NCBI RefSeq assembly: GCF_907165195.1
Contig: NZ_OU015584.1
Location: 2,261,291 to 2,325,290 of the forward strand
DNA: 64,000 nt
Reading direction: 5' to 3'
DNA from: Parvicella tangerina
GTDB taxonomy: Bacteria; Bacteroidota; Bacteroidia; Flavobacteriales_D; Parvicellaceae
Under the pieces are notes generated by a model that ran no database searches, had not been told where the DNA came from, and saw only the letters and a program-made list of their open reading frames with translations. Every line of letters begins with the position of its first letter. Position 1 is the first letter of the stretch. Of this stretch, positions 5,076 through 58,508 are shown piece by piece. A program made the translations under genes and the position numbers.

Positions 5076-5867
5076 TTACCCATTGACCTCTTTAATGAGC
5101 TTCACGTAATCTTGGTAATTATCAATTTCCAGATCTTCGTTGTCGGCTTTATAATAAGGTTTTCCTAACATCAATATCTCTTCAGCTTCATTAGGATAGT
5201 TCTTTGCTCTGTAGTTATAATAAGCAATTAAACCTTCTTTAAAATAGTATTGCTGAGAGGGTGTCATTTCTGAGAAGTCCAATTCAAACTCAAATTCATC
5301 ATCTTCTTCATCAAGTTTTGCAAGGGCTTCTTTTATTTCATCTTTCCCAGAAGACTTATCGTTTGCATAAACGTAGTGAACACCAAGCATGAGCTGAACA
5401 CCAACATCATCTGGGTCAATTCTTTTCAGCTTCTTCAGGAGTGACTTGGATTTACGATAATCCTTTTCCGTTCCGCCCAATTCGTAATTTTCAATTTGTT
5501 CTGCTACTTCAAACTTGATCTTTTCAATGAAGTCCTTAGCATCTTTTTCGAACAGATATTCCTTATCTTTTCTACGATACTTTGTTAGATACTTTAGACA
5601 TTCTCTGTACGCTTTGGGATAGTCCTCAACGTACTTGTGGTCTCTGCTGATCTCATAATACGTCATAGATGTATACAAATACGGTAACGGATCCCTTTTC
5701 GTTTCATCCTTATCCATATACTTTTCAGCTTTTTTGAGGCATTTTTCATAATCTCCATCTACGTACAACACCAGCAAATCCATATAGTCATTAGCCGTTT
5801 GACTCTGCATGGGCAGCGCTGCAAAGATTGCAATGATGAATAAAAGAGGTGTAGTAAACAACTTCAT
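5076..5867 (-). CDS. Secreted TPR-like hypothetical protein
   Basis: 263 residues with a signal peptide (about 1-22, ending before QTAND). The mature part is alpha-helical with TPR-like helix pairs (for example LLVLYVDGDYEKCLKKAEKY, and the segment with VGVQLMLGVHYVYA) and charged acidic and lysine-rich runs. No enzymatic motif is visible. TPR proteins of this size in Bacteroidota are typically periplasmic scaffolds; no specific partner can be inferred. Confidence 0.7.
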   Translation of the reverse strand: MKLFTTPLLFIIAIFAALPMQSQTANDYMDLLVLYVDGDYEKCLKKAEKYMDKDETKRDPLPYLYTSMTYYEISRDHKYVEDYPKAYRECLKYLTKYRRKDKEYLFEKDAKDFIEKIKFEVAEQIENYELGGTEKDYRKSKSLLKKLKRIDPDDVGVQLMLGVHYVYANDKSSGKDEIKEALAKLDEEDDEFEFELDFSEMTPSQQYYFKEGLIAYYNYRAKNYPNEAEEILMLGKPYYKADNEDLEIDNYQDYVKLIKEVNG

Positions 5868-5994
5868 AATGTTCTGATTTTTTTTTATTTATTCCTAGTT
5901 ACATTATATGAATTACAAAATAAATACCAAATTTATTTTGTTAAATATTTCTTAAACACGATTTTAATTCTAAAAAACTACCGATTCGAACCAA

Positions 5995-6603
5995 TTAGTT
6001 TTCAACTTCATGAATAAAGTTCTTGATCGTTTCAAAAGGTCCATCTACCAAGCCTGCATTGATCACCCAATCAGGCACCTTCCCCCCAGGATCGGTGACG
6101 CCTTCATAAACGATATGGGTAACACCTTCTTTCCTTGTAAACTTCCATTTGGTGGTGGATTCCGTAATTCGAACAACATCTTCAACCTCCTTCTTCACAC
6201 CTTCAATTGCGACTAAGCTGACCTCTGCTTTGTTGGCAGAGTGCTTATTCTTACTTGCTTTGATTATAATATCTCTGTCTAATACTGGCCATGGAGCATC
6301 CATTAACATATAACACAAAACATCATCCGTTTTGGAGGGTATAATACTCGCTTCTTCTACTGTATAACTCCAATTTACGTGATTTTCGAGATCCAAAAGA
6401 AAGTTGACACAATCATCAATTGAGGCTGTGGTTGACGCTACGGCTCTGTAAGTTTTAAGCACTGCATTTTCCTGACTTTTAACAAAAACCTCAATACCAT
6501 CCTGTTTTTTTCGAGACGTCCAATCTCGCTGGGCAAAACCAGTTGTCGTAAAAAATAGAATAACAATAAAAAATGTAACGCTTATTGGAATGTTGACCTT
6601 CAT
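5995..6603 (-). CDS. Exported START/SRPBCC-domain protein
   Basis: 202 residues with a signal peptide (about 1-24, ending GFAQ). The mature protein matches the START lipid-binding helix-grip fold: GIEVFVKSQENAVLKTYRAV at the N-terminal strand, the central segment with YMLMDAPWPVLDRDIIIKAS, and a C-terminal helix (GPFETIKNFIHEVE). Likely binds a hydrophobic ligand in the periplasm; the ligand is unknown. It stands alone, with AT-rich spacers on both sides. Confidence 0.82.
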   Translation of the reverse strand: MKVNIPISVTFFIVILFFTTTGFAQRDWTSRKKQDGIEVFVKSQENAVLKTYRAVASTTASIDDCVNFLLDLENHVNWSYTVEEASIIPSKTDDVLCYMLMDAPWPVLDRDIIIKASKNKHSANKAEVSLVAIEGVKKEVEDVVRITESTTKWKFTRKEGVTHIVYEGVTDPGGKVPDWVINAGLVDGPFETIKNFIHEVEN

Positions 6604-9261: not shown

Positions 9262-10431
9262 ATAGAAACTGAGCATCCGGTAATCGATCAAATGCACTCC
9301 AGTGTAATAGAAGTGGAGAACATCTCTGAAACTATACCCCATATCACACATATTCATGGCACCTTCTTGAGAAAGACCAACACCATGACCAAAACCTTTT
9401 CCTTTGAGAATGATCTTACCGTCCTCTTCTTCCACACTGAAGTAAGTACTTTTCAACTTAAAGTCTGATCTCACATCCGTCAGCAGTATATGATACTTCC
9501 AGTCGACAAAATACTTTGCCCTACTCTCCTGTTTCCAATTTACCAGATCATTAACCGCAGCAGTATCATTAATTGGAAAATCATATAGCTTTTTGAGGTC
9601 TTTTAAAAAGTCGTCCTTATCAAAACTCTTCGACCAATGATAATTATACTTTCCTTTGGAAAAAGGATCTTTAACACTTCTTAGATAAGACACTTTTTTA
9701 CTCCAAACATACTCTGAGTGTGACGTTTGCCCACCGCTATTTGAGTAGAACGCAGCTGAAATTAGCCGCATCTGATCATCTACTAACACCAGATTTGCAG
9801 TCTCCTGGACGGCTTCTTCAATGTTCGGATTTCGATACATCTTACCCAAATAAACCTGACAATTGGTGAGATCTGTCATCATAAAACCTTCATGCAAGAA
9901 TTTTCGTTGATTCTTCATAGCATAAGTTCTGCTGATGATCGCCTGCACTTTGTAATACTCTTTGCTCTGATAATTTCCAGCTTCAGACTCCAGCACTCCC
10001 TCCAAATAATGTTGCATGGTCACCAAACTAACCACATCCAATTTTCCTTCCCTAGAGAAGCATTTTATCCCACCAAAGTATTTACGCTCTTTAGTGGATG
10101 GATTACTACCTTTTATAGCGTAATGGCTATCTGAACTAAAGCTTTGAATGGAGATTTCTGCAAACTTCCCAATAGTTTCATCAGGAACCTTAACCGTAAT
10201 TGATTTATCCGAGTTTACCTTAAGTGAAACGGTTTCAAACTCTTGCAAATGATAAAGTAACGAATCGTTTTTGTCGTAAATTCTATAAGAGTTATCCGCT
10301 GGTTTAAATGTAATTGAGTACAAGCTAACGCTTCTAAAGATGCCTATCTCAAGGATTTGATCATCGCCACAAAATGCTGTTTTACCAGTCATGAAGATTA
10401 TCAAGGTCAGTATGAGAAGACTTTTAGGCAT
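9250..10431 (-). CDS. SpoIID/LytB-domain protein
   Basis: A 393-residue exported protein with a signal peptide (ending near FCGDD). It has the SpoIID core: the helix EYYKVQAIISRTYAMKN, the motif with FYSNSGGQTSHSEYVWSKK, and the C-terminal GKGFGHGVGLSQEGAMNM loop. SpoIID of Firmicutes is a lytic transglycosylase acting on denuded glycan strands; Bacteroidota homologues are assumed to trim peptidoglycan but are little studied. The ATG at 10431 is preferred over an upstream TTG (10449) because it leaves a standard signal peptide. Confidence 0.88.
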   Translation of the reverse strand: MPKSLLILTLIIFMTGKTAFCGDDQILEIGIFRSVSLYSITFKPADNSYRIYDKNDSLLYHLQEFETVSLKVNSDKSITVKVPDETIGKFAEISIQSFSSDSHYAIKGSNPSTKERKYFGGIKCFSREGKLDVVSLVTMQHYLEGVLESEAGNYQSKEYYKVQAIISRTYAMKNQRKFLHEGFMMTDLTNCQVYLGKMYRNPNIEEAVQETANLVLVDDQMRLISAAFYSNSGGQTSHSEYVWSKKVSYLRSVKDPFSKGKYNYHWSKSFDKDDFLKDLKKLYDFPINDTAAVNDLVNWKQESRAKYFVDWKYHILLTDVRSDFKLKSTYFSVEEEDGKIILKGKGFGHGVGLSQEGAMNMCDMGYSFRDVLHFYYTGVHLIDYRMLSFYLSE

Positions 10432-21801: not shown

Positions 21802-21875
21802 GGTCTGGTAGTTCAGTTGGTTAGAATACCTGCCTGTCACGCAGGGGGTCGCGGGTTCGAGTCCCGTCCAGACCG
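21802..21875 (+). tRNA. trnD: tRNA-Asp (GTC)
   Basis: A 74-nt cloverleaf: acceptor GGTCTGG pairs with CCAGACC, D loop AGTTGGTTA, anticodon arm CCTGC-CTGTCAC-GCAGG with anticodon GTC, variable GGGTC, T arm GCGGG-TTCGAGT-CCCGT, discriminator G as expected for Asp. CCA is not encoded. Its 3' end is the attachment site used by two islands; the functional gene is kept intact by the att copy of E1. Confidence 0.98.
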
Positions 21876-21877
21876 CT
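21862..21877 (+). repeat. attL of E1 (tRNA-Asp 3' end)
   Basis: TCCCGTCCAGACCGCT, made of the 3' half of the T arm, the acceptor strand and two flanking bases. The same 16 bp occur at 36531-36546, and 15 of them at 60940-60954. Confidence 0.92.
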
Positions 21878-22066: not shown

Positions 22067-25000
22067 TTGAGTTTAACGGATGCACATAAAGGTTATGAAT
22101 TTCAAGACTTATTATGTTCTTATTTTATCCTAGATGAGGTATTGAAGGGGAACAATTGCCAATTTCAAATTGACACAAAATTATTTTCTGAAGATAGATT
22201 TGATGATTTAACAATTTTCAGTGGTAATGGTGTCTACCGAAAACAAATAAAATATAGCGACAATATCTCTGACAAAGAACTCTCCAAAAATGATTTGAGT
22301 TCTGACAATTATGGTTTAGCAATTGATGCTCTTTACAATTCATATAAATCTGAAACTTCAAACGAGTTGAGGGAATTAAGAATTTGTTTAGGGTGGAATA
22401 AACCGACTGATGAATTAACCAATATTCTTCAAAGAGAATCAACTTCACCTGAAAGCTTTAAAACACACAAAACTGAACTATATAAAATAAACGTTGATAA
22501 ATTATGGCCTGAAGAAACAGGTCCTATCGACAAATGGAAAAGGTTTAAGAAAGCATCATCCGAAATTGATAGAAACGAGTTTATTAAGTTTTGTAACCTC
22601 CTAATTATTGAGGTTAACTTACCAAAGTCTAGCATCGACATTTATAATCCAGGAGAGTTAGAATCAATTGTACTCGAGCAAATGGACCGCTTAGGAATTG
22701 GCATGTTTCCTAACGAACAATTATCTCCTGCTAGCAGTATTCTAGATTTGACCCACAAAATTAAATTACTAAGAGCCAACAATGGCAGCATAACTGAAGT
22801 TGAAATTTTAGACTATCTAAGAATTAATAGAGACTATGGTTCAATCAATCAAAAAATACCAGTAGACAAAGAGAAGAACATTATTCACGAGAGTCATACC
22901 AAGAGTATTATTAAGAGAATATTTGAGAATCGAAAATCAAAAATACTTGCTGAGCCTGGGGCTGGTAAATCTTGGTTCATTTCTAATATTGAAGAACAAT
23001 TAAACGAGCAGAAAATTCCAGTCATTAGGCATTTCTGCTATACGGATTTGGAAGATGAATTGCAAACTGAAAGAATCACCTTAAATCGCTTTTATGGAAA
23101 CTTAGTTTCGGAAATTCTTGAAGAATTTCCATTCTTGAAAAATGTAAAACAAAGGCTTTTTAGCAGCAATTTAGAAGAGTTAAATCTTTTGCTGAAGGAG
23201 GTTCCAATACCAACAATATTAATTATTGATGGTTTGGACCATATTGATAGAATATATGGGTTGTACGGTCATGGCATATCACCTGATGAGGTTAAAATTA
23301 TTGAAAAAATAAGTGAATTAGAATTAGGCGACAATGTATCAGTCGTTCTTTCTTCTCAACCTATCAGCAGTGTCAAGGCATTAGATGAATATAAAGACTT
23401 AAGTCTACCTGAATGGAAACAAAACGATGTTAAAGACTTAGCTAATCGTTTTGGACTCTCCGTGACCAACACAACTGAAGATATAGTTGATTTACTATTC
23501 AAAAAAAGTGAAGGGAACGCTCTTTATCTTACATACCTCATCAAGGAGGTTGCCAAAATGCCTCAAGTCAGTTCTGAAACAATTCAAAAATTACCCACAC
23601 ACTCTAATAACTTAAATGATTACTATGAATATCTCCTTTCAAAACTAAATGAAGATAAACAGGTTCCATATATTCTAGCAGGGTGCAGTTTTAGAGTGAC
23701 AACCAATGAATTAAAAGAAATCACTGGCATCGGTAACTATGTGATAGAGCAATTAGAGGATATTTCGAGTGTTATTAAAACGAATATATCAAGAGGTGGT
23801 CATTTAATTTATCATGAAAGTTTCAGGAGATTTTTGATAGAGAAGCTCAAGGAAAAAGATGTAGATGTATCCAAAACGATTTACACCCCTATTATTAATT
23901 GGTTCGAAAACAATGACTTCTTTAAATCTTCCAAAACCTTCAGGTTTTATTTGCCATTGTTATCATTGGCGGGTAGGTTCGATTTAATCATTAATAAAAT
24001 CACAATCACATTCATTACGGATAGCCTTTATTATGGTCACTCACTTCAAAGTATTCAAAAAAATTGCGACCTATTTTTAAAAGCTATTTTTAAAACTCAA
24101 GATTTCCCTAAATTAATTATCCATGGAGAATTAAGGAGAGTTCTTGAAAGCACTGAAAATGAGTACTACGAATCATTTATTTCCTATTTTGAAGCATTAG
24201 GGCATGTTCATGGATTTGATTCAGCTTGTGACTTCTTATCCTTTGAAGGCGTACCTACACTTGATGAATCTTTAGGTATCAGTGCTTGTTTTTTAATTGA
24301 GTCTAATGGAACTCCTGCGCCATGGCACCTTTACGATGAGTATTTCTCCAATTATGAATTTGAAGATTTTTCCTTAAATGACTGGAAATACTATGTGCTT
24401 TATTTATGTAATCTAAAGGAATTAGAAGATATAGGAAAAATCGTAGAATATCTTTTTGAAATTGGTTATTGGGAACTTATTAAGGAGATAAAAAATAGCG
24501 TACTTAAGACTAGTGATAAAGAATTTATAAAGCAGACTATTCCTTTTTTCGAAGAAAAAAAGCCAGCTCCAACAAAGATTCAAGAGAATCAAAGTTTGGT
24601 TTATACAACCGCTATAGAGCTTACTTCAAAACTGCTGGAACTAGAACATGTTTTTGAGAAGGAACAATTAGTATTTCAAAAGTTTGAATCTGAGATATCA
24701 AAGTTAATTCAATGTGATGACGACCAAACTATAAATGAAATAATTGGTTTATTAGAATACAATAATTGGTTCTACAACTGGGTAATATACTCTATTCGTC
24801 TAAAACAACTTTGCAAAAAAGAAAATGTTCAATCCTCTGAAATTGTCACCCTTTTTGAAATCCTAAATCTAGATACAGAACCTTTTAAAGGCACTCCTAG
24901 AACCATTGACTTATATCAATTACACGAAACTATTCTCAAGTCGATTGACCAAGGTTTAGAATTAATAGATGAACTACCACTTTGGGAAAAGGTCACAACA

Positions 25001-27733
25001 ATTCTACTAGAAGTTGCAGATTCAATTACGACAAGTCTTCAAAATGACCCTGGTGGGCCATTAACAGCTTCAAAATTACTGAGACTTCTTGACAAGCATA
25101 AAACGGAGAATAACTTAGAACTTTTCAGTAGAATTAATAAGACTATCATTAATGATAAGGAAAGCTATTATTTACATCATTACGTTTCAGAATTCTATTT
25201 TCAATTATCCAAATTTCAATCTTTAAGAAACGAAATCGAAAACTCTCAATCTTTCAGAACTGGAATTGAATTCATGATTGGCTACACGCATAGAAAAGAT
25301 TCAACAATTGAGGAATTATTGAATGGTGTAAATGGAGTTTTAAATGTCGATAGAGAAGCAGCGCATCAGTGGATACTAAAACTTAAACCTCTTGTCGATT
25401 CAGTTGTGAACCATACAGATGGTAAAGGCACAAAGCATTTCCCTGTAAGATGGTTTAAAGATTACTTGAGCATAGCTCCTAGCGAAGCTATTTTATACCT
25501 ACTGAACAACCTTAAGTACCCTAAAATTGACTGGAGATTAGAAGATAATTTAAGACTAGGAATCATCGCTAATGAAGAGAAACATCTTGTCAATTCATTT
25601 AATTCTAGAACAATTCCATTAGATGACGATGAGTCCTTTTTTAAATCACGTCTAAGAAGTTGTCAAGAATTAGAATCATTGGATAAAGATTCAGGACGTT
25701 CTTTACTAATATCGCTCTGCTTCTCGATTCAGAGAAAAACTGATTTAAGGCTTAGCCCTGAACTAATTGATGAGTTTAAAAAATGTTGTGAGAACTATCA
25801 AATTAATGTTCCAGATGAACTTAACTCGTTTTCAAATTATTCAAAGAAGAAAAACAGAGTCAAAACTGTTCATGATTATATCAAAGAAATAGCACCATCT
25901 CGTAAAGAATTATCCGAAATGAATTCTGATGAAATTTCAGAGTACTTCGAGAAATATAATGTTACAGAACGAGAAATATTATCATTAAAATACTACTTCG
26001 AATCAAAAGGTTCATTTGAAAATGATGACAAGAAAATCATAATTGCGTTACTACCGAAGAATAAACATTATGTAGAGGGTGAATCAAAAGAACTGCTTAC
26101 TGATTGGATATTCGAGAATAACTCGGAATACAGTACATTTTACTGGGTAGCTCGGTTTGTCGTTGACACTGGAGGTTGGTATGAAAGATTAATCAATCAG
26201 GATGCGTTTCAAAGAGCATGCAGTAATAATGAAGAACAATCAATAAATTTTCTATTTGAGCTATTATACAAGGAGTTTAATGGGAAATATTATACATTAA
26301 GAATAGCTTCTTCCAACTTACTAAAAGCCTTATCCAGGCTACAAAAATATAAATGCACTGCACTTGAAATGTGGCAAAACCTATTCGATTCTATTAATTA
26401 TAGGCTACCATCCGTAGAAGAAATTGATTGGACTGAAGAATTAGAGAACAGCCACAATTTAGATGAGGATGAAATACTCATATGCATTCTTCTGTCAAGA
26501 CTAAGAAGTCCAGCATTAAACAAACACCTTGTAGTCTATGAGGGAATTTACCAATTATTCAAATTTCAACCCGATAAATTAATTAAACCAATTAATTGGT
26601 TTTTTAGTAATTCGAAATTATTCTATGAAACAGACGTATATGTTATTCTTGAATTGATAAGGTATTTTAAGGAAATTGAAGAGGCTTACCCCCAACATTT
26701 TAAAAAATCAATTGAAAAGCTATATCCGAAGCGTCATTTTCTAATTGATTTTATTATCGAAGAACTTTTTCCAAACCTAAAGGGTTATCGTATTCTTTTT
26801 GAAGAATCTAATTTTCACACGGTTGATAATGAAATGTATGAGAGCTACTTAGAATTAAATATTAGACATAGACTTTTAGAAGACATAGGCTACAATCTCA
26901 GAGGAGTATTTGGAAAATATTACAAATCTGTAGGTAAACTTTGTAATGATGATTATAAAATAATGTATAATCGCTCCAAAGATATCCTAGCACCTGCAAT
27001 CTGTGGTCCAGACCATCTATTATCATTAATTAACAAGCAATTTTATAATAGTTATTTTGACGGTGATTACATACATCCCAATCAATTATTTATAAGTATT
27101 CGAGTTAGATTAGAACTATTACTTTCACAAGAGAAATCATTAATCTCAAGACCTAATTTTCAATTTCCTAAAGATGAACTAGGCTTTAAGAAGAAAAAAG
27201 AAATACAATATGCTTCTGAGGATTGGGTAAGAATTGGAAGTTATGAAGAGCAGTTAATTCTAGGCTACAAAAGGGAAGACTTTGAAAAACATATTAGATA
27301 TGCTGGTTTAACATTTGAAGACTCGAAAGAAAATGATTTTCCATTCTCATCTTATAGAATAAATCCTGAACATTTATGGAGTCCCGAGAAATGTGACTAT
27401 GAAATTGAAAGTAATATTGTTTGTTCCTTCATCCAAACTCATGATACCCTTGAAAATTATAGACTATTATGGCTTAACCCTGTTTTAGTTAGAATGTTAG
27501 GGCTTTCTGGATGTAAAAAGTTCGAACACCTGCAAGCTGTGAACGAAGATGGGGAGGTTATATTAAAGTACAATGCATGGAAGAGCAACCCTATTGGAAC
27601 AGGGTATAGTAATGGACCAGAAGATGAATTGCCGACACTAAAAGGAGCAGAGTTATTAATAAGAAAAGATTACTTTGATAAACTATGCAGTTTCTTTGAC
27701 TCTAAGCCACTATTTAGTCAGCTAGTAATATAA
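22067..27733 (+). CDS. Large STAND NTPase with N-terminal Cap4-like nuclease (Avs-like)
   Basis: 1888 residues, the first gene of E1. The N-terminus (GYEFQDLLCSYFILDEV, RFDDLTIF with Asp46/47, and Gln60-Ile-Lys62) has the D...QxK pattern of Cap4/DUF4297 PD-(D/E)XK nucleases. A STAND NTPase follows: Walker A AEPGAGKS (295-302), Walker B ILIIDGLDHID (Asp388), then a winged-helix-like region. The remaining 1200 residues are helical-repeat-like, as in sensor regions. This order and size match antiviral STAND (Avs) proteins, in which phage protein binding to the C-terminus triggers the effector. Only a TTG start is available; a stop lies five codons upstream. An HNH gene follows 5 bp later. Family membership is inferred; the recognised target is unknown. 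Confidence 0.75.
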   Translation: MSLTDAHKGYEFQDLLCSYFILDEVLKGNNCQFQIDTKLFSEDRFDDLTIFSGNGVYRKQIKYSDNISDKELSKNDLSSDNYGLAIDALYNSYKSETSNELRELRICLGWNKPTDELTNILQRESTSPESFKTHKTELYKINVDKLWPEETGPIDKWKRFKKASSEIDRNEFIKFCNLLIIEVNLPKSSIDIYNPGELESIVLEQMDRLGIGMFPNEQLSPASSILDLTHKIKLLRANNGSITEVEILDYLRINRDYGSINQKIPVDKEKNIIHESHTKSIIKRIFENRKSKILAEPGAGKSWFISNIEEQLNEQKIPVIRHFCYTDLEDELQTERITLNRFYGNLVSEILEEFPFLKNVKQRLFSSNLEELNLLLKEVPIPTILIIDGLDHIDRIYGLYGHGISPDEVKIIEKISELELGDNVSVVLSSQPISSVKALDEYKDLSLPEWKQNDVKDLANRFGLSVTNTTEDIVDLLFKKSEGNALYLTYLIKEVAKMPQVSSETIQKLPTHSNNLNDYYEYLLSKLNEDKQVPYILAGCSFRVTTNELKEITGIGNYVIEQLEDISSVIKTNISRGGHLIYHESFRRFLIEKLKEKDVDVSKTIYTPIINWFENNDFFKSSKTFRFYLPLLSLAGRFDLIINKITITFITDSLYYGHSLQSIQKNCDLFLKAIFKTQDFPKLIIHGELRRVLESTENEYYESFISYFEALGHVHGFDSACDFLSFEGVPTLDESLGISACFLIESNGTPAPWHLYDEYFSNYEFEDFSLNDWKYYVLYLCNLKELEDIGKIVEYLFEIGYWELIKEIKNSVLKTSDKEFIKQTIPFFEEKKPAPTKIQENQSLVYTTAIELTSKLLELEHVFEKEQLVFQKFESEISKLIQCDDDQTINEIIGLLEYNNWFYNWVIYSIRLKQLCKKENVQSSEIVTLFEILNLDTEPFKGTPRTIDLYQLHETILKSIDQGLELIDELPLWEKVTTILLEVADSITTSLQNDPGGPLTASKLLRLLDKHKTENNLELFSRINKTIINDKESYYLHHYVSEFYFQLSKFQSLRNEIENSQSFRTGIEFMIGYTHRKDSTIEELLNGVNGVLNVDREAAHQWILKLKPLVDSVVNHTDGKGTKHFPVRWFKDYLSIAPSEAILYLLNNLKYPKIDWRLEDNLRLGIIANEEKHLVNSFNSRTIPLDDDESFFKSRLRSCQELESLDKDSGRSLLISLCFSIQRKTDLRLSPELIDEFKKCCENYQINVPDELNSFSNYSKKKNRVKTVHDYIKEIAPSRKELSEMNSDEISEYFEKYNVTEREILSLKYYFESKGSFENDDKKIIIALLPKNKHYVEGESKELLTDWIFENNSEYSTFYWVARFVVDTGGWYERLINQDAFQRACSNNEEQSINFLFELLYKEFNGKYYTLRIASSNLLKALSRLQKYKCTALEMWQNLFDSINYRLPSVEEIDWTEELENSHNLDEDEILICILLSRLRSPALNKHLVVYEGIYQLFKFQPDKLIKPINWFFSNSKLFYETDVYVILELIRYFKEIEEAYPQHFKKSIEKLYPKRHFLIDFIIEELFPNLKGYRILFEESNFHTVDNEMYESYLELNIRHRLLEDIGYNLRGVFGKYYKSVGKLCNDDYKIMYNRSKDILAPAICGPDHLLSLINKQFYNSYFDGDYIHPNQLFISIRVRLELLLSQEKSLISRPNFQFPKDELGFKKKKEIQYASEDWVRIGSYEEQLILGYKREDFEKHIRYAGLTFEDSKENDFPFSSYRINPEHLWSPEKCDYEIESNIVCSFIQTHDTLENYRLLWLNPVLVRMLGLSGCKKFEHLQAVNEDGEVILKYNAWKSNPIGTGYSNGPEDELPTLKGAELLIRKDYFDKLCSFFDSKPLFSQLVI

Positions 27734-27738
27734 TTGTT

Positions 27739-28575
27739 ATGGCCCAGAACTCTATAAAGAGAAAAACAAAACAAAAGCTTGAAGAAAAGCAACCGTACTG
27801 CATCGTTTGCTTGGAGGCAAAAGAGGCAAAATCTATTGAGCACATAGTGTCCGAATCTTTTGGAAATAAAACATATCTATTAGAAAAGGGCGCATTATGT
27901 GATGAATGTAATAACCTATTCTCAAAATTTGAAGAAACTGCTTTGAGTAGAACTGTGCTTGCCATGGAACGGGCTCGATTAGGAATGGCTTCCAAGAAAG
28001 GTAAAACGGCAAAGGGAACGTTCGGAAAACTAAAAGTTGAGGGGAATGATGAATTCAAAAAAAACTTTATTACAGCCTATGGATTAAAGAACGAGGATAT
28101 CGTTGATTTTAATCCTGAAACTGGAGAGTTTAAACTTCATATACCTTCATTTGAAAAAAGTGCTGTCGCAACAGGGAAATTACTTTTAAAAACGGGAATT
28201 GAATCAATTTACCAATCGAGAAGAACAATTTATAATGAGTGCGACTTTACTGATTTACGAGAGCACTTACTTGGAATTAATAATACAGATTGGCCCTTTA
28301 TTACAACTTCTTTAGAGCTCGACCATTTTTCTTGGGTTCCTTTCGGTAGAGAATTACCACCACTAATTAAAAAACAAATAAGACTTTGGTATAGTAATAC
28401 GAGTGATGGTATTTTATTTAAGTTTAAGTATGGTGCAATTCCTATGATTATCAACCTAACTAATAGAGATTTGGAATGGGTTGCGGATTATACCTATGAA
28501 CAGAATGATAAGAGGGTTTCTATCTATCCAGAACATTTCAGAAAGAAAGTAGATAAACTTCTTAGTGATGATTAG
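27739..28575 (+). CDS. HNH endonuclease-like protein
   Basis: 278 residues. An N-terminal zinc-HNH motif: Cys21-x2-Cys24, Glu34-His35-Ile36, Cys54-x2-Cys57-Asn58, the HNH-5-like arrangement. The remaining 200 residues are unassigned, with aromatic-rich beta segments. It begins 5 bp after the STAND gene and must be co-expressed with it; it converges with an XRE gene with 4 bp overlap. It may be a second effector, a partner or a regulator of the STAND protein, or an unrelated nuclease carried along. Confidence 0.75.
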   Translation: MAQNSIKRKTKQKLEEKQPYCIVCLEAKEAKSIEHIVSESFGNKTYLLEKGALCDECNNLFSKFEETALSRTVLAMERARLGMASKKGKTAKGTFGKLKVEGNDEFKKNFITAYGLKNEDIVDFNPETGEFKLHIPSFEKSAVATGKLLLKTGIESIYQSRRTIYNECDFTDLREHLLGINNTDWPFITTSLELDHFSWVPFGRELPPLIKKQIRLWYSNTSDGILFKFKYGAIPMIINLTNRDLEWVADYTYEQNDKRVSIYPEHFRKKVDKLLSDD

Positions 28576-50361: not shown

Positions 50362-50601
50362 ATGGCAATTCAAACAACTGAAATGACAGAACTAGGTGAA
50401 TTTTTAGCAAGGAAATCAATCAACAAAGCAGAAGTTTCACGCAGAACAGGCATTAGTCAATCACGTCTTAGTGAATTGGCTCTGAACCCTTCGACAAAAC
50501 TTCAGGCGAAAGAGCTTTACCTGATTGCCCTTGCAATAGATATTGAACCTGGTGAAGTCCTGAATGAGGTATGTAAGCATTTAAAACTACAAACAGACTA
50601 G
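50362..50601 (+). CDS. XRE-family HTH regulator of the cassette
   Basis: 79 residues, one Cro/CI HTH (FLARKSINKAEVSRRTGISQ followed by SRLSELA). It ends 1 bp before the ATPase gene, so it is co-transcribed with the cassette, as controller proteins of restriction-modification systems often are. It probably sets expression timing. Confidence 0.85.
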   Translation: MAIQTTEMTELGEFLARKSINKAEVSRRTGISQSRLSELALNPSTKLQAKELYLIALAIDIEPGEVLNEVCKHLKLQTD

Positions 50602-50602
50602 T

Positions 50603-53026
50603 ATGGCACAAGTATCATTTACAGTTTCCGCGCGTACCGCCAAATTAATAGGGCAGGAAAATTTTGCAACAGCTGAGGGAGCAATTGTTGAACTTGTCAA
50701 AAATTCCTATGATGCTGATGCTAGAAACTGCATCATCATATTCGAGAATCATAACGAATCAAGTGAAAAGCCAACCATTTATATTATTGATAATGGTATT
50801 GGAATGACTAGTAAAATCATCAAGAATCAGTGGATGAAAATTGGTACAGATGATAAGTTGGAAAATTACTTATCTGATGGAGGAAGGGTGAAAACTGGAG
50901 CCAAAGGAATTGGAAGATTTGCACTGGATCGTCTTGGATTGTCTTCTGAAATGAAAACTCTGTCCAAAGAACCTGTTGAAGCATCTGTCTGGAGTGTAAA
51001 ATGGAGTGATTTTGATAAAGCGGGCGTGGCGATCAATGATGTTAAGGCTGAATTGGATGTAGTTGAAGGCTTGAATATTCAGACCGAACTCGCAGAGCAG
51101 TTTTCTGATTTTGAGGCCCTTAAAAAAGTTATTGAACAAACAAAATTTGAATCTGGTACCATGTTGAAGATTCATCCGGTAAAGGACAAATGGGAGGAAG
51201 ATTCGATCAAAAGTCTATTTGACAATCTGGAAGTACTTATTCCACCACAAGAACAACCAGAATTTGACGTACACCTTTTCTCAACATCTCAACCAGATGA
51301 GTATGGTCAAGTAAACAGTGCTTATTATGACGACTTTGATTACAAAATAAAAGCTCACTATTTGGCTGATAAAGACCAAACCATTGAGTTTGAGATTACC
51401 AGAGACGAGTTGGATGTTGATTCACTTGAAAAGTCATTCTCTGAAGTCTTTGAGAATGATTTGATGAAAAAATCACCGTACACTTTACCTGAAATCAAGA
51501 AGAAAACCTTTAAGATCAAGAAAACGGTTAAAAATCTTCTTGGTTCATCAGACACACTTGACGAAAAACTAATTGAGCAAATTGGTGAATTCGACTTCAC
51601 ATTTTACTTTCTCAAGAATGTTATTGATTCAAAGGATAAAGTTAGATTCCCCTACAAAAATATTTCATCTGCCAATCGAAAAGCATGGTTAGAGAAGTTT
51701 GGTGGTGTAAAAATTTTCCGTGATGATTTCCGGGTCAGACCATATGGTGAAAATGGACAGGATTGGTTAGGGTTAGGAGAAAGACAAAACAAAAGTCCTG
51801 GTGGTGTTGCACAAAAAATTGGTGGCTATAGAATCGGATCGAACCAAATAGCAGGAACCGTGAACATTTCACGGATCGCCAATTCAAATTTTCAAGACAA
51901 ATCCGGGCGGGAAGGAATTCAGGAAAATGACGTTTTCGAGATATTCAAGAACATACTGATTGAGATTATATCAGTTTTTGAGAAAGACAGAAATGTGATC
52001 ATGTATTGTTTATCTGAGTTGGCCAAGAAGAAGTTCAAAGATGAAGAAGAGAAACGGAAAGCACAAGAAGAAGCTGACAGAATTCTGAGAGAAGAGGAAG
52101 AAAAAAAGAACTCAGAAAGTCAAGATAAGGAGCCATCAGATACTGATGATGCAACAGATGGTAATGAAGACTCTGGAAAAAAAGATGGACCTACGGAATC
52201 TGAGAAACTACTCGCCAAAGCAGCAAAGATTTATGAGCAAGAGTTAGAGGATAAAGATGAAGAAATTAGGTTATTGAGAGGATTGGCAAGTGTAGGTCTA
52301 ATTATTTCCTCATTTGCACATGAATTGAAAAGTTTGAGATCTCGACTAACACCTAGAACAGACTTTCTGCTTAGAGAGTTAAAAAAATACATAGAGGAAA
52401 AAGATTTGCAGGGCATCAATGAGCAGGACAATCCTTTCTACATGATCAAATTAATCAAAGAAGAGGACTTAAAACTGAAGCATTGGCTGGAGTATTCTTT
52501 GAGTACCCTTAAACGAGATAAGCGTACCCGAACTAACTTGAACATTGGCGAATATTTTGAACGATTTAAGGCTACCTGGCATCAAGCGCTGGAGCAACGT
52601 AAAGTCCAGATAGAGCTTAAAGGGAACAAGGACACGCAGAACATAATCAGGGCATTTGAGGTTGATTTGGATGCGATTTTCAATAATCTTCTTTCCAACT
52701 CTCTTAGTGCTTTCAAGGAAAAGAAAGGGAATTATCAAAGGAAAGTGGAGGTTGAGTGGAAAAGTACGGATGATCATGTAGCGATTACCTTTACGGATAA
52801 CGGTTGTGGACTTGCCAAAGAGTATCAGGATAGTCCGGAGAAAATATTTGCATACAACGAATCATCAAAGCGGGATCGAAAAGGGAACAAAATTGGAACG
52901 GGAATGGGATTGTATATAGTCTCATTAGTAATAGATGATTACAACGATTCTAAAGTTGAACTGCTCCCTTCTAAAGATGGCTTTTCCATAAGGGTTATAA
53001 TGCCAAAAAGAAAAAATAGTAAATAG
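50603..53026 (+). CDS. Double-GHKL ATPase: MORC-like N-terminus plus histidine-kinase-like C-terminus
   Basis: 807 residues. N-terminal GHKL domain: N box VELVKNSYDADA (Glu30, Asn34, Asp37), DNGIGM (63-68), and TGAKGIGRFALDRLG near 100-114, the Hsp90/MutL/MORC style. Then a conserved QDKSGREGIQEN segment and a charged coil (about 475-560). The C-terminus is a second, kinase-like unit: FAHELKSLR (His573), IFNNLLSNSLSAF, DNGCGL and GTGMGLYIVSLVI. The protein could hydrolyse ATP as a clamp and pass phosphate from His573 to the receiver encoded 1 bp downstream. No membrane segment is seen. MORC-like ATPases beside restriction-modification genes have been predicted before; the kinase half and receiver are the unusual part. 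Confidence 0.8.
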   Translation: MAQVSFTVSARTAKLIGQENFATAEGAIVELVKNSYDADARNCIIIFENHNESSEKPTIYIIDNGIGMTSKIIKNQWMKIGTDDKLENYLSDGGRVKTGAKGIGRFALDRLGLSSEMKTLSKEPVEASVWSVKWSDFDKAGVAINDVKAELDVVEGLNIQTELAEQFSDFEALKKVIEQTKFESGTMLKIHPVKDKWEEDSIKSLFDNLEVLIPPQEQPEFDVHLFSTSQPDEYGQVNSAYYDDFDYKIKAHYLADKDQTIEFEITRDELDVDSLEKSFSEVFENDLMKKSPYTLPEIKKKTFKIKKTVKNLLGSSDTLDEKLIEQIGEFDFTFYFLKNVIDSKDKVRFPYKNISSANRKAWLEKFGGVKIFRDDFRVRPYGENGQDWLGLGERQNKSPGGVAQKIGGYRIGSNQIAGTVNISRIANSNFQDKSGREGIQENDVFEIFKNILIEIISVFEKDRNVIMYCLSELAKKKFKDEEEKRKAQEEADRILREEEEKKNSESQDKEPSDTDDATDGNEDSGKKDGPTESEKLLAKAAKIYEQELEDKDEEIRLLRGLASVGLIISSFAHELKSLRSRLTPRTDFLLRELKKYIEEKDLQGINEQDNPFYMIKLIKEEDLKLKHWLEYSLSTLKRDKRTRTNLNIGEYFERFKATWHQALEQRKVQIELKGNKDTQNIIRAFEVDLDAIFNNLLSNSLSAFKEKKGNYQRKVEVEWKSTDDHVAITFTDNGCGLAKEYQDSPEKIFAYNESSKRDRKGNKIGTGMGLYIVSLVIDDYNDSKVELLPSKDGFSIRVIMPKRKNSK

Positions 53027-53027
53027 A

Positions 53028-53657
53028 ATGTATAGACTCGGATATATAGATGAAGATGAAGGTCAAAGAAATTCCTTCTATCAATTTCTAAAAGATGATT
53101 TTGAAATAATCTTGTTCAGCATCACGGATGAGACTGAATTAGATTCCTTGGTTGAAGAAATCTTCCAATCTGGTATTGATATGCTCGTTCTGGATTTTCG
53201 TTTGGACGAAACAGGGTTAGTAAATTTCAATGCAGATTCTCTAGTAGATAAAATTCAGGAACGGAATCTTTACTATCCGTTAGTTATTCTGACTTCCCAT
53301 GAAGAGGATGCAATGGATCATATTTCTAATGCGAATTTGATTAATGGTAAAGAAGAGATGCTCGGTTCAAAAGTTCAGCTTTTCAAGCAGAAGCTGAACA
53401 AAATTGTAAGTGGTTACCAAGCCAAAGTGATGGAAGCAGAATCTGAACTAGAAACACTTGAGGAGAAACGTCAGAATGAAGGTTTAGATGCAAAAGAAGA
53501 AGATAGATATGTTGAGTTAAATAGTTATTTGGACAAGACCATGACCGCAAAGAGTCGAATTTCAAGAACGTTTTATTCTGAAGACACTAATAAGAAACTT
53601 GACGATTTAATTGAAAAGACTTCAGAAATACTATCAAAAATTGAAAAAGAGAAGTAA
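53028..53657 (+). CDS. Receiver-domain protein with C-terminal coiled coil
   Basis: 209 residues. N-terminal receiver: Asp8-Glu9-Asp10 acidic cluster, Asp56 in MLVLDFRLDETG, and VILTSHEED at the Thr/Ser position; the conserved Lys is not evident. Residues 125-205 form a long charged coiled coil instead of a DNA-binding domain. It is thus a candidate phospho-switch between the GHKL protein and the nuclease or methylase. Its stop overlaps the HNH start (TAATG). Confidence 0.75.
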   Translation: MYRLGYIDEDEGQRNSFYQFLKDDFEIILFSITDETELDSLVEEIFQSGIDMLVLDFRLDETGLVNFNADSLVDKIQERNLYYPLVILTSHEEDAMDHISNANLINGKEEMLGSKVQLFKQKLNKIVSGYQAKVMEAESELETLEEKRQNEGLDAKEEDRYVELNSYLDKTMTAKSRISRTFYSEDTNKKLDDLIEKTSEILSKIEKEK

Positions 53658-54271
53658 TGTACCCTTTTAGAGAAAATACACCCGAACATAGACCAGGGAG
53701 AGCAGTATGTGTACATTTCTCTTCCTATCGTACCACACTCAGAGAAGACTTTCAGAAGCGTTGTGGTTATTGTGATGATTCAGATTTATTGAGAATAAGA
53801 AGTTTTGCAATTGATCACTTTATTCCTCAGAACCCAGTTGGTTTTTCGCACACCATTCCACCAAATGACTATTATAATCTGGTATATGCTTGTAGTTATT
53901 GTAATACCTATAAAACCAATAAATGGCCTACACTGGATGCAGCCATATCAAATGATGGAACTATTGGATTCATTAAACCAACTGAGCAAGATTATACGGA
54001 TCGATTTCAAAGATCCAAAGAAGGAAGAATAATTCCAGTGGATAATACCGACACTGTTGCTAATTATATTAGATCAGAACTGAAGCTATGGCTTCCTATC
54101 CATGAAAGAATGTGGAAACTTGAAAAGGTCAAAAAGTTGAACAACGATATAACAAATGCCCTTGCTTCAATGGATGATGGGGATTTAAAAACTGAACTTC
54201 AAGCCATTCACTACCAAGTATTATTGATTTTGACAGAAATCCAAGACAGTATTTTTATTGCAAATGAATAA
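53657..54271 (+). CDS. HNH endonuclease
   Basis: 204 residues. Complete HNH zinc motif: Cys36-Gly-Tyr-Cys39, Ile52-Asp53-His54-Phe, then YNLVYACSYCNTYK. A likely DNA-cutting subunit. It overlaps the receiver gene (1 nt) and the methylase gene (8 nt), so the three are translationally coupled; the likely restriction part of the cassette. Confidence 0.88.
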   Translation: MYPFRENTPEHRPGRAVCVHFSSYRTTLREDFQKRCGYCDDSDLLRIRSFAIDHFIPQNPVGFSHTIPPNDYYNLVYACSYCNTYKTNKWPTLDAAISNDGTIGFIKPTEQDYTDRFQRSKEGRIIPVDNTDTVANYIRSELKLWLPIHERMWKLEKVKKLNNDITNALASMDDGDLKTELQAIHYQVLLILTEIQDSIFIANE

Positions 54272-56096
54272 GGACGTACAATCATATTTAAAGTCATATT
54301 CGTTTGACCCTAAAAAGATCAATCGACTGATTGTATCTAATTTTTTGTTTTACAATAACTTGTACAACGTTGATAATAGAATTATAAGCGCGCTCCATAT
54401 CACAAATGATTCAGAGGATTACAATGAACTACTTAAATTTATAAACCTCCATAAAATTCAGACCATAGAAAATCTGATTGAGGTATTTGAATTTGTTGTT
54501 TCTCCTGAAGAAAAAGTAGTGACCGGAGCGATCTATACTCCAGAACCTATTCGTGATTTTATTCTTGATCAAACCCTAAACGATCATACAGAACTAGCAA
54601 CAATTAAAGTATGTGATCCTGCATGTGGATGTGCGAGTTTCCTTTATTCAGCAAGTCTTAAAATTCATGAATTAACAGGCCGCCCACTTTCAGAAATTTA
54701 TGAAAACAATATTTTTGGTTTAGATATTCAAAATTATTCAGTTGAACGATCTAAAATTCTACTCTCCCTGGCAGCAATACTCAATGGTGATGATCATGAA
54801 GAGTACACATTCAACTTGTTTACAGGCAATGCTTTAGACTTTAATTGGTCCGCGGTAACTGACGAATTCTCAGGATTTGATGCAGTTGTTGGAAACCCTC
54901 CTTATGTATGCTCAAGAAACATAGATCCAGAATCTAAGGATCTTTTGGAAAAGTGGTTTGTTTGCTCAACAGGCCATCCGGATTTATACATACCATTTTT
55001 TGAAATTGCCATAACCAACTTGAAAGAAGGAGGGATTCTCGGTTATATTACCATGAACACCTTTTTTAAAAGTATAAACGGAAGAGCGTTAAGAGAATAC
55101 TTATCACAATACAAGAACAGTATTATTGATTTTGGTGGGCATCAGGTATTTGATTCAAAATCGACCTATACATGTATTTGTCTGATTAGGAAGCAATCAT
55201 CTGAAATACTTAGATACACAAAACTTAATTCAGTAGATGACCTTCAAAATACGTTAGAGTACGACAGTATTGATTTAGAATTGCTTGATCATTTTGATGG
55301 TTGGAACCTACAAGAAATTGAACTTTTAAACCGCATTGAAAATGCGGGCATCCCTCTAGGCAAAAAGTTCAAAACACGTAACGGAATTGCAACCCTCAAA
55401 AATAACATCTACATATTCACCCCCATTGATGAGGATGAGGACTTTTACTATCTACAAAATGGTAAGGTGTATCAAATAGAAAAAGAGCTTTGCACCGACA
55501 TTGTGAACTCCAACAAATTCACTAAAATTGAATCTGTAGAAACAATACTTCAGAAGGTAATTTTCCCATATAGATATAATGATCAAGAAATTGAGGTGAT
55601 TGATGAAAAAGAGCTTTCATCATCTTATCCAAGAGCATACAAATATCTGAAAGACAAACGCAAAATTCTTGCTACACGTGACAAAGGGAAAGGGAAATAT
55701 GAAAAATGGTACGCATATGGACGCAATCAATCGTTGGAGAAAATGCGCTACAAGTTATTCTTCCCTCACATTTCAGCTGATATCCCCAACTTTGTAGTAA
55801 ATCAAGAAGAACATCTCTTGTTCTATAACGGCCTAGCCTTAATAGCGGAAAATCGTGTCGAGTTATTACTGATGAAAAAACTTATGAGTTCTCGCCTGTT
55901 TTGGTTCTATGTTACCAAGTCAAGTAAGCCATACGGTTCTGGTTATTATTCTTTAAGTAGAAACTACATCAAAAAATTTGGAATCCCTGAATTCACAGAT
56001 GACGAAATTCAGTTCATCATAAACCAAGACAACCAGGAAGAATTAAATGATTTCATTGATAATAAGTACGGAATTAATACAGAAATACTAGTTTAA
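54264..56096 (+). CDS. Eco57I-class N6-adenine DNA methyltransferase
   Basis: 610 residues from the ATG at 54264. Motif X-like GAIYTPEPIRDFI, motif I VCDPACGCASFL, motif III-like NIFGLDIQNYSV, motif IV VVGNPPYVCS. The 250-residue C-terminus (RNGIATLKNNIYIFTP, then YGRNQSLEKMRYKLFFPH) is a TaqI-type target-recognition domain. There is no nuclease motif, unlike fused Eco57I enzymes; the cutting role would belong to the HNH protein. It probably modifies adenine in a specific site. Confidence 0.92.
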   Translation: MNKDVQSYLKSYSFDPKKINRLIVSNFLFYNNLYNVDNRIISALHITNDSEDYNELLKFINLHKIQTIENLIEVFEFVVSPEEKVVTGAIYTPEPIRDFILDQTLNDHTELATIKVCDPACGCASFLYSASLKIHELTGRPLSEIYENNIFGLDIQNYSVERSKILLSLAAILNGDDHEEYTFNLFTGNALDFNWSAVTDEFSGFDAVVGNPPYVCSRNIDPESKDLLEKWFVCSTGHPDLYIPFFEIAITNLKEGGILGYITMNTFFKSINGRALREYLSQYKNSIIDFGGHQVFDSKSTYTCICLIRKQSSEILRYTKLNSVDDLQNTLEYDSIDLELLDHFDGWNLQEIELLNRIENAGIPLGKKFKTRNGIATLKNNIYIFTPIDEDEDFYYLQNGKVYQIEKELCTDIVNSNKFTKIESVETILQKVIFPYRYNDQEIEVIDEKELSSSYPRAYKYLKDKRKILATRDKGKGKYEKWYAYGRNQSLEKMRYKLFFPHISADIPNFVVNQEEHLLFYNGLALIAENRVELLLMKKLMSSRLFWFYVTKSSKPYGSGYYSLSRNYIKKFGIPEFTDDEIQFIINQDNQEELNDFIDNKYGINTEILV

Positions 56097-56273
56097 ATGG
56101 ATAATAAAGAACTATCAAAATCAGATTGGGAAATGATCACAGAATCATTGGGATATACCAAATTACGGGTTGGTGAATCACAAGATTACCCCGACTATGA
56201 ATCTAAACAGAAAAAGATCCACCAGATTGAAGCGTTGATTGCAAAGGTTAACGAGATCAAGAAAAGATCATAA
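56097..56273 (+). CDS. 58-residue protein ending the cassette
   Basis: The ATG directly follows the methylase stop (TAAATG). The product is charged and helical: MDNKELSKSDWEMITESLGY at the start, KQKKIHQIEALIAKVNEIKK near the end (coiled-coil heptads). Tight coupling supports a real gene and a role as partner or regulator of the methylase or receiver coil. Unrecognised. Confidence 0.65.
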   Translation: MDNKELSKSDWEMITESLGYTKLRVGESQDYPDYESKQKKIHQIEALIAKVNEIKKRS

Positions 56274-56909: not shown

Positions 56910-58190
56910 TTATCCATCCGCACGGGAAAAAGCCATAGATTTCAATTCCTGTTCTGCTTTTGATATTCCATACTTCGTTGCAACATTTCTCCAATTCCGA
57001 ACAGCCGATTTAACCCCTTCAATAATTTCAATTGCCTGATTTTTGTTTAACCGGAAATAAGAGCAAACTTCTAAAGCAAGATTGAGATCCAGCGCATTAT
57101 CATCCTCCGAAATATTCAGCTTAAGGCCGGTACCTGTTTCAACGGGATTGATATCATATGCAGGTGAAAGAATCCACCCCCCGTTAGTCAGAATAAATCC
57201 ATGATTGCGTAAATGATCATCTGTATTTGCTACACAAATACTAAATACTATGCGTCTCCAAAGTTGCTCCAGATCTTCATTTACATTCGCTCCTTGTGTG
57301 GTGATAAATTCCACCAGTTCAAGGTAACTAACACCTTCGCCATGATCTTCACCGTCCACATGTCCTAGCAAGGTCATTGCTGAGGCAAAATGGATGCGTT
57401 CTCCAGTTGAAGTACGATCAAACCGTTTAGTCAAAAATGTATGGTTATTGGTCGTAAATTTTTTCGCCTGAGCTTCAGCCATATTCACTCCAGCAGCAAT
57501 AGCCAGTTCATAGGTAACTATCTCCCATCCTCCAATATCAGATTGATCATTCTTACTTGGGAATTTAGCAATCCATAGGTGATTGTCATTATCCAAAACA
57601 CTTGCTTTTGGACGTGCACCACCTAATGAAGAACCGGGAGCAACCAACATGCTTAACCATTTCAGGTACTCTGGATCATTGATTACATCATCATCTTCCA
57701 AACGCAAGCTGATTTGTTCCAGGTCCCGAATAGATGTCCATGGTGGGCTGGCCATTGCCTTATTATCATTTAAGAAAGATCCATCAGGATCCAATTTGAA
57801 ACGTAATCCTCCCATGCGGTGCCCGTCATAAACACCCAATAAATAGTCCGTTTCAAATAAGCTATGCTGTGGTCGTCCTTCCTCTCTGGATAGAGCAGCC
57901 TCTCTTCTTCGCATTAGAATACGTCCCCATCTGTCAGGAGATGAATCCAAAAACATCCCGAAATTATGTTTCTCCTGATCATTTAGGTATTGCATTCCTG
58001 CATACAGTTGTAAGTCAGGGTCGAGCAATTGAGCATGTCCAGATTGCAACCAGTCATTATCATATTCAAAAGAAAAAATCTCTTTTCCTCTCAATAGTTC
58101 AGCATACACCACTCCCATGTACACAGGACCATTTAGTTCGCGCCAATCTGCATAGACATGCACTGCTCGTTTTTTATCTGTCTTGGCCAT
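56910..58190 (-). CDS. hipA: HipA-family kinase toxin
   Basis: 426 residues. HipA N-terminal (YMGVVYAELLRGKEIFSFEY) and kinase-like C-terminal domains, with SSLGGARPKASV (ATP-binding loop), WIAKFPSK, the catalytic segment VANTDDHLRNHGFIL and YDINP (metal-binding Asp). In E. coli HipA phosphorylates glutamyl-tRNA synthetase and induces dormancy; the target here is unknown. Its ATG lies 3 bp after the hipB stop. Confidence 0.92.
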   Translation of the reverse strand: MAKTDKKRAVHVYADWRELNGPVYMGVVYAELLRGKEIFSFEYDNDWLQSGHAQLLDPDLQLYAGMQYLNDQEKHNFGMFLDSSPDRWGRILMRRREAALSREEGRPQHSLFETDYLLGVYDGHRMGGLRFKLDPDGSFLNDNKAMASPPWTSIRDLEQISLRLEDDDVINDPEYLKWLSMLVAPGSSLGGARPKASVLDNDNHLWIAKFPSKNDQSDIGGWEIVTYELAIAAGVNMAEAQAKKFTTNNHTFLTKRFDRTSTGERIHFASAMTLLGHVDGEDHGEGVSYLELVEFITTQGANVNEDLEQLWRRIVFSICVANTDDHLRNHGFILTNGGWILSPAYDINPVETGTGLKLNISEDDNALDLNLALEVCSYFRLNKNQAIEIIEGVKSAVRNWRNVATKYGISKAEQELKSMAFSRADG

Positions 58191-58193
58191 GGT

Positions 58194-58508
58194 TTACTTC
58201 TTTTTTGGAGCTCGTTCATTCGTGCTCAAATTTGCATCCTGTATTTTTCTTCCCAATTCATCATCTTGGGCAACTAATAATAGGTCTTTTTCCAATCCCA
58301 GTACAACAAGTACTTGCAGATATAATCCGATACTCACACTTTCAGACCCCTTCTCAATTGAATGTAACGTAGGTCTGCTTATGTTTGCGCGTTCAGATAC
58401 TTGTGCTGTACTAAGTTTTCTTCTTAGCCGTGCGAGCTTAATATTCTCCCCTAATTCTCGTAATAACTTCTTATGTTTCGGTAGTAAAACTGGCTTTTGT
58501 CGTCCCAT
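58194..58508 (-). CDS. hipB: HipB-like XRE antitoxin/repressor
   Basis: 104 residues with HTH segment LARLRRKLSTAQVSERANIS, then RPTLHSIEKG. It precedes hipA by 3 bp in the standard antitoxin-first order. Basic tail (NERAPKKK). Likely binds HipA and represses the operon through the repeats upstream. Confidence 0.9.
   Translation of the reverse strand: MGRQKPVLLPKHKKLLRELGENIKLARLRRKLSTAQVSERANISRPTLHSIEKGSESVSIGLYLQVLVVLGLEKDLLLVAQDDELGRKIQDANLSTNERAPKKK

Follow-up and report, generated by a model that had tools for sequence, protein, structure and literature searches.

What could be achieved by keeping a histidine kinase, a receiver protein, a nuclease and a DNA methyltransferase together in one run of genes? 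This question is raised by a locus of Parvicella tangerina, contained in the 64,000-nucleotide stretch of DNA that we analysed (hereafter, the window). A sequence-only reading had described six genes in one direction, separated by a few base pairs at most, and had proposed a restriction-modification system in which cutting may be gated by phosphotransfer. The same six co-directional ORFs and spacings were recovered here, with successive gaps of +1, +1, -1, -8 and 0 bp, where the -8 assumes that the methyltransferase starts at the ATG at 54264 (Table 1). PADLOC, run on the window, called no defence system at the cassette. The answer that we modestly favour is that the locus is a self/non-self DNA defence cassette made of two interchangeable modules, in which a MORC-like sensor would gate a nuclease by His-Asp phosphotransfer.

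Table 1. Genes and key codons of the cassette, in window coordinates.
Feature	Positions	Strand	Basis or remark
XRE/Cro-type regulator (XRE), 79 aa	50362..50601	+	HTH_26 3.3e-9 (Pfam); optional fifth gene
MORC-type double-GHKL histidine kinase (HK), 807 aa	50603..53026	+	Pfam, solved-structure profiles, AlphaFold2 (AF2), Foldseek
Codon of the predicted phospho-acceptor His573 (HK)	52319..52321	+	Invariant in 77/77 non-redundant homologues
Receiver protein (REC), 209 aa	53028..53657	+	AF2 pLDDT 88.8; Foldseek TM 0.70-0.76
Codon of the predicted phospho-receiving Asp56 (REC)	53193..53195	+	Invariant, 85/85
PtuB-like HNH nuclease (HNH), 204 aa	53657..54271	+	HNH 2.2e-7 (Pfam); PtuB1 model 1.3e-14
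Eco57I-class N6-adenine DNA methyltransferase (MTase), NPPY motif	54264..56096 (ATG) or 54258..56096 (TTG)	+	Eco57I 3e-30
58-aa protein, non-core	56097..56273	+	Homologue in L040

The kinase consists of a GHKL domain (residues ~1-220), a transducer (~221-442) and a coiled coil (~443-564), followed by DHp (~565-640) and CA (~641-807) domains. Pfam places HATPase_c_3 at 23-139 (1.5e-19) and HATPase_c at 687-802 (4.5e-17), and the profiles of solved structures match MORC3 over 25-195 (1.8e-6) and HK853 over 557-778 (5.9e-17). All five parts are visible in the AlphaFold2 model built from 46 sequences (pLDDT 81.5), the coiled coil being long. In Foldseek searches, the top matches of the first half of the protein are MORC2 (also in its DNA-bound form), SMCHD1 and MORC3, and those of the second half are ZraS, HK853 and CpxA. 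These approaches agree with the MORC-like GHKL domain and second kinase-like domain proposed earlier, and the predicted structure confirms HK as a MORC2/MORC3/SMCHD1-like ATPase joined to a DHp-CA kinase. Within the 77 non-redundant homologues, the first GHKL domain keeps the catalytic Glu30 and Asn34 in 76, as an ATP-hydrolysing MORC/MutL-type site requires, and the N-box residues Asn695 and Asn699 of the kinase are kept in all, as is His573 of the DHp helix. In three of 94 loci HK is split into two ORFs (L052 ~9520-9650, L055 ~9500-9680 and L080 ~9480-9530), with the frameshifts falling in the coiled-coil linker, which is A-rich (A-runs of 6-10) and connects the MORC half to the kinase half; they could stem from slippage, from decay or from an error in assembly.

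By sequence alone, REC matches Response_reg with E=0.0079, which is below the Pfam cut-off, so the receiver assignment rests on the AlphaFold2 model and on invariant residues. The model, predicted from 48 sequences after leaving four rows from plasmid records out of the structure-prediction alignment, shows a (beta-alpha)5 receiver at residues 1-114, with Asp8, Asp56, Thr89 and Lys108 at the expected strand ends, and it superimposes on solved receiver domains (TM values in Table 1). What follows are long helices (115-150 and 155-171, that is ~115-171, and 185-208) and no DNA-binding output domain, in line with the earlier description of a receiver lacking such a domain. In 85 non-redundant sequences whose mean pairwise identity is 27%, Thr89 is as invariant as Asp56 (85/85), Lys108 is kept in 83 and the acidic pair 8/9 in 84; the only columns at 95% or above are Asp56, Pro84, Thr89, Lys108 and Leu144, three of the five belonging to the canonical phosphorylation pocket. 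Both relay residues lie where they had been predicted, and HK and REC together display what defines a two-component pair, namely a phospho-accepting His in a DHp domain, the receiver Asp, acidic pair, Thr/Ser and Lys, and both folds. In mutual information between HK and REC, the block of DHp and receiver helix 1 seemed enriched (1.2% vs 0.5%), but ~5.6% of arbitrary blocks reach this value; between REC and HNH the mutual information is slight. The output domain of REC has probably been replaced by the helical tail, with REC acting through the neighbouring HNH.

Pfam matches supported the nuclease, methylase and regulator assignments of the sequence-only reading. The HNH protein, which resembles the PADLOC PtuB1 model (Table 1) and weakly matches the NCBI TIGR02646 and PtuB models, carries a Cys36/39/79/82 cluster, Asp53-His54, Asn74 and Asn83; His54, Asn74, Asn83, Lys86, Cys36 and Cys79 are 100% conserved, and no separate target-recognition domain was seen in the protein. 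The MTase matches the PADLOC MTase_II model over its full length (3.5e-101), and its solved relatives are an adenine-specific MTase entry (8cxz/7lni, 1.7e-21), M.BseCI, BrxX and M.TaqI; the NPPY motif is 99-100% conserved. An XRE homologue, probably a control protein, is present in 15 of 95 loci and stands almost always directly 5' of HK. The 58-aa protein gave no profile matches, and its gene occurs in two loci, the window and L040, where it lies between XRE and HK. L040 is a metagenome-assembled genome and the closest relative of the window (HK 68% identical); there, HNH alone is frameshifted (5766-6168), with HK, REC and MTase intact.

The sequence-only reading had named in advance the outcome that would speak against it, homologous neighbourhoods in which these genes are dispersed. 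Based on an alignment of the MORC half, a scan of 84,980 species genomes returned 499 sequence-confirmed relatives (two peptide patterns), the best 80 of which were fetched; together with 10 viral contigs, plasmid loci and the window they made a survey set of 95 loci. This sample was picked by similarity, and its frequencies therefore apply to relatives of ~29% identity or more, not to all paraMORC kinases. All of the best 80 of 499 carry the cassette, or whatever part of it their contig covers. Iterated profiles found HK in 94 of the 95 loci, REC in 92, HNH in 90 and MTase in 84, and in 88 loci HK, REC and HNH are consecutive and co-directional in a fixed order. The seven exceptions are contig ends (L051, L062, L091 and L101) or broken ORFs (HNH in L040, HK in L070 and REC in L119). 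By profile, the MTase adjoins this trio in 81 of 88 loci, mostly downstream, with upstream positions in L005, L042 and L122-L124; L125 and L127, both prophage loci, carry a different N6_Mtase upstream, and in L126 an upstream MTase match falls below the cut-off. Since HK, REC, HNH and MTase are kept while XRE occurs in 15 loci and the 58-aa gene in two, the system comprises four genes: the six ORFs of the earlier description are real, but the conserved core is smaller than the unit it proposed.

The hosts include Bacteroidota, Campylobacterota, Myxococcota, Thermodesulfobacteriota, Verrucomicrobiota, Ignavibacteriota, Alphaproteobacteria, Deinococcus and archaeal bins, and the four genes stay together as a block across phyla (Bacteroidota, Campylobacterota, Proteobacteria, Deinococcus, Verrucomicrobia, archaeal bins) and in prophages, so that the sequence-only reading survived the condition it had set for itself. 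The conservation of the active residues strongly indicates selection on the relay, the nuclease, the methylase and both ATPase activities. Flanking genes are mostly mixed and include scattered integrase, STAND and restriction genes and few defence genes, and scans of these flanks for a fifth conserved gene found none. In L127-L129 the cassette adjoins an integrase, and in L125 it is carried by a P2-like prophage between replication gene A and the portal gene, a position that we take to be the old/tin defence-cargo site of P2. Among Escherichia coli genomes there was no close DNA match to the prophage versions. A plasmid of Klebsiella variicola (L006:5986-9560) has a kinase annotated in three pieces and is probably a decayed cassette.

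Does the cassette then work as a classical type II pair? Under this explanation HNH would cut the site that the MTase protects, and HK and REC would only tune its timing or its amount, for instance while the system establishes itself in a new host. A methyltransferase and a nuclease do share one operon, their genes being adjacent and overlapping in most loci, and an XRE control gene accompanies them in some. The co-evolution data point elsewhere. In Mantel tests, pairwise distances correlate between HK and REC (0.74), HK and HNH (0.65) and REC and HNH (0.59), whereas those of the MTase correlate with HK, REC or HNH at an r of only 0.09-0.13; after correction for HK, a partial correlation persists between REC and HNH (0.22, p 0.005) but not between HNH and MTase (0.01, p 0.35). 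HK, REC and HNH co-evolve and the MTase does not. Two large classes (~612 and ~525 aa) account for most MTases, next to a few small classes, and well-supported branches of the HK tree force at least 11 switches between classes, throughout which HNH kept its association with HK and REC. As HNH and MTase do not co-evolve, the resemblance to a classical type II pair is reduced, and the PtuB-like nature of HNH, with no separate target-recognition domain seen, argues in the same direction. From this decoupling we infer that HNH is not site-specific, with the reservation that one motif could in principle be common to different MTase classes. We consider a type II pair unlikely: of the restriction-modification system with a relay that had been proposed for this locus, the gene block and the relay residues are kept, and the type II appearance is weakened.

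The reverse swap is seen in L130 (1731-7933), from a genome of the same taxonomic order as the window but of another family. Its MTase and XRE are 56% and 72% identical to those of the window, and their partners are an HK with 27% identity, a receiver protein that is longer and, where HNH would stand, a different protein of 251 aa. No solved relatives were found for these replacement proteins, and L130 apparently pairs another effector type with the same modification module. Taken with the MTase switches, this exchange indicates that sensor-effector and modification are separable modules.

The phosphorelay-gated defence that we favour would use these modules as follows. In the first, the N6-adenine MTase, at times with the XRE control protein, would mark host DNA and is the likely sole sequence-reading part. 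In the second, the paraMORC half of HK (GHKL and transducer) would probably clamp DNA in an ATP-dependent manner, like MORC and MutL ATPases, and would respond to invading or unmodified DNA; its movement, transmitted by the coiled coil, would switch the DHp-CA half, which would autophosphorylate His573 and hand the phosphate to Asp56 of REC. Phosphorylated REC, via its helical tail, would then release or activate HNH, and DNA would be cut. The parts of this scheme are not equally firm. Phosphotransfer from HK to REC is very likely, and an anti-phage or anti-mobile-element role only slightly less so; that the output of REC acts on HNH is fairly probable, and that phosphorylation activates rather than inhibits is a reasonable expectation held with somewhat less conviction, while the assignment of the MORC half as the DNA sensor is favoured by a small measure. 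It is tempting to go further and to see here a distinct class of restriction, in which specificity would reside in an exchangeable adenine MTase and a MORC-type clamp would command a silent HNH through the phosphorelay; this idea is tentative and may well prove too strong.

The sign of the relay could also be the opposite. Phosphorylation might hold REC on HNH and keep it silent, so that loss of the kinase, of ATP or of the MTase would free the nuclease, as in a guard or addiction system. REC and HNH co-evolve beyond what HK explains, the helical tail of REC would suit the holding of a partner, and the genes are found on mobile elements, with HNH alone broken in L040, a pattern that resembles the decay of toxin or restriction genes. 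Against this, the MORC ATPase and the kinase are both catalytically intact, which fits a triggered sensor no less well, and we judge the inhibitory version improbable, a shade more so than the type II pair. Alternatively, the relay might address something else, such as transcription or the nucleoid, with HNH and MTase as a separate neighbour. No REC-HNH fusion was found among the 95 loci and the contact between the two proteins is putative, but HK, REC and HNH keep a nearly invariant order and co-evolve, and REC has no DNA-binding output domain, so we regard such a target as very unlikely. Finally, chance neighbourhood in a mobile region, which the RteC and integrase genes of the window might suggest, is ruled out for practical purposes by the neighbourhood survey, as 88 of 95 loci, spread over many phyla, contain the block, with mixed flanks.

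Several known systems resemble parts of the cassette. The sequence-only reading noted that MORC-like ATPases had been predicted near restriction-modification genes; this holds, and closer precedents exist in a 2021 study and in Detocs. Iyer, Abhiman and Aravind (2008) described paraMORCs (GHKL and S5-like domains) in restriction-modification operons, and noted in paraMORC1 a conserved extension at the C terminus and a possible co-occurrence with HNH nucleases (PMC2292703). The window HK is like them in its N-terminal GHKL and transducer ATPase, with motifs intact, and in its operon with restriction-modification genes; that paper mentions no receiver gene, its passages devoted to these proteins do not call the extension a kinase, and the role it proposed was DNA looping with helicases (PMC2292703). 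Bellieny-Rabelo et al. (2021) reported soluble kinases of the form HATPase_c_3, HEF_HK and HATPase_c beside receiver-like genes near restriction-modification systems, mainly with C5-cytosine methylases and Vsr; their study, which was computational only, speculated on regulation of restriction-modification and proposed descent from paraMORCs (PMC8011034). The architecture is shared, with a kinase of HATPase_c_3, DHp (His followed by an acidic residue) and HATPase_c beside a receiver gene and a link to restriction-modification, but in contrast to that set the present cassette is fixed and carries an N6-adenine (Eco57I-type) MTase and a PtuB-like HNH instead of a C5 methylase.

Profile searches place the window outside the two families of that study. 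PF19191 (HEF_HK) had no match in the window HK at E up to 1 and is absent from the families listed for 45 homologues, and at most one kinase homologue is a member. Similarly, PF19192 (Response_reg_2) had no match, at E up to 1, in the window's own genome and five plasmid records, and is absent among the families listed for 48 receivers. Judged by these profiles, the window is outside the HEF_HK and Response_reg_2 families as defined, with the same architecture. Distant plasmid relatives from Campylobacter, Hymenobacter and Enterobacter have a longer response regulator, and two of the three stand beside a C5 methylase: L007:5971-9148, L008:2117-5496 and L009:5968-9190 each encode a paraMORC-kinase and a response regulator of 331-385 aa, the regulators share a C-terminal domain (EMYIxP, TGDI, TPACDI) and give no match to PF19192, and the C5 methylases adjoin in L007 and L008.

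Detocs is described as an established defensive two-component system (PMC11249213). The cassette is like it in using a two-component relay, and unlike it in that the cassette receiver has only a helical tail and no PNP is encoded. The best-described effector of Detocs is an ATP-cleaving PNP, and the system is not known to include an MTase, HNH or MORC ATPase. The cassette shares a PtuB-type HNH effector with Septu (PtuAB) and retron Ec78, but has neither a PtuA ABC-type ATPase nor a retron, its ATPase being a MORC-type GHKL kinase. Similarly, BREX and DISARM also combine an N6 MTase (PglX or DrmMI, relatives of the cassette's) with a separate effector module and a modular MTase; in contrast to them, no PglZ, BrxC or DrmA-type proteins are present in the cassette or its direct neighbours in the window. 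The DefensePredictor paper has a figure of predicted, unvalidated systems in which the abbreviations HATPase and REC are listed; this entry is probably Detocs-like, since TPR and a purine phosphorylase domain are named alongside. The open-access literature, to which our search was confined (subscription papers and preprints lie outside it), contained no published HK-REC-HNH-MTase system. What was known before comprises paraMORC/HNH operons, a paraMORC-kinase and receiver near C5 restriction-modification genes, and Detocs; the wiring of DNA cutting to a phosphorelay is what our analysis predicts.

If correct, this prediction would unite two-component signalling and restriction-modification, which are normally separate fields, and would give bacterial MORC-like ATPases, kin of the chromatin silencers of animals and plants, a testable job as DNA sensors. 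In addition, a nuclease would become the second type of effector in phosphorelay-gated defence, and the output of a two-component system would be DNA cleavage rather than transcription. The swaps of the MTase hint at a logic like that of BREX, where the exchange of one gene can alter specificity. As the cassette is widespread, judging by the 499 relatives of its MORC half, the answer would be relevant to many genomes.

Around the cassette, the window contains an excisionase-like gene, an RteC-type gene and integrases, and a HipA/HipB-like toxin-antitoxin pair lies directly downstream on the - strand (56910-58508). Farther away, a protein of 1888 aa that contains a STAND-like AAA domain is followed by an HNH_5 protein (22067-28575), a short distance downstream of a tRNA-Asp gene (21802-21876); this looks like another defence locus that PADLOC did not recognise.
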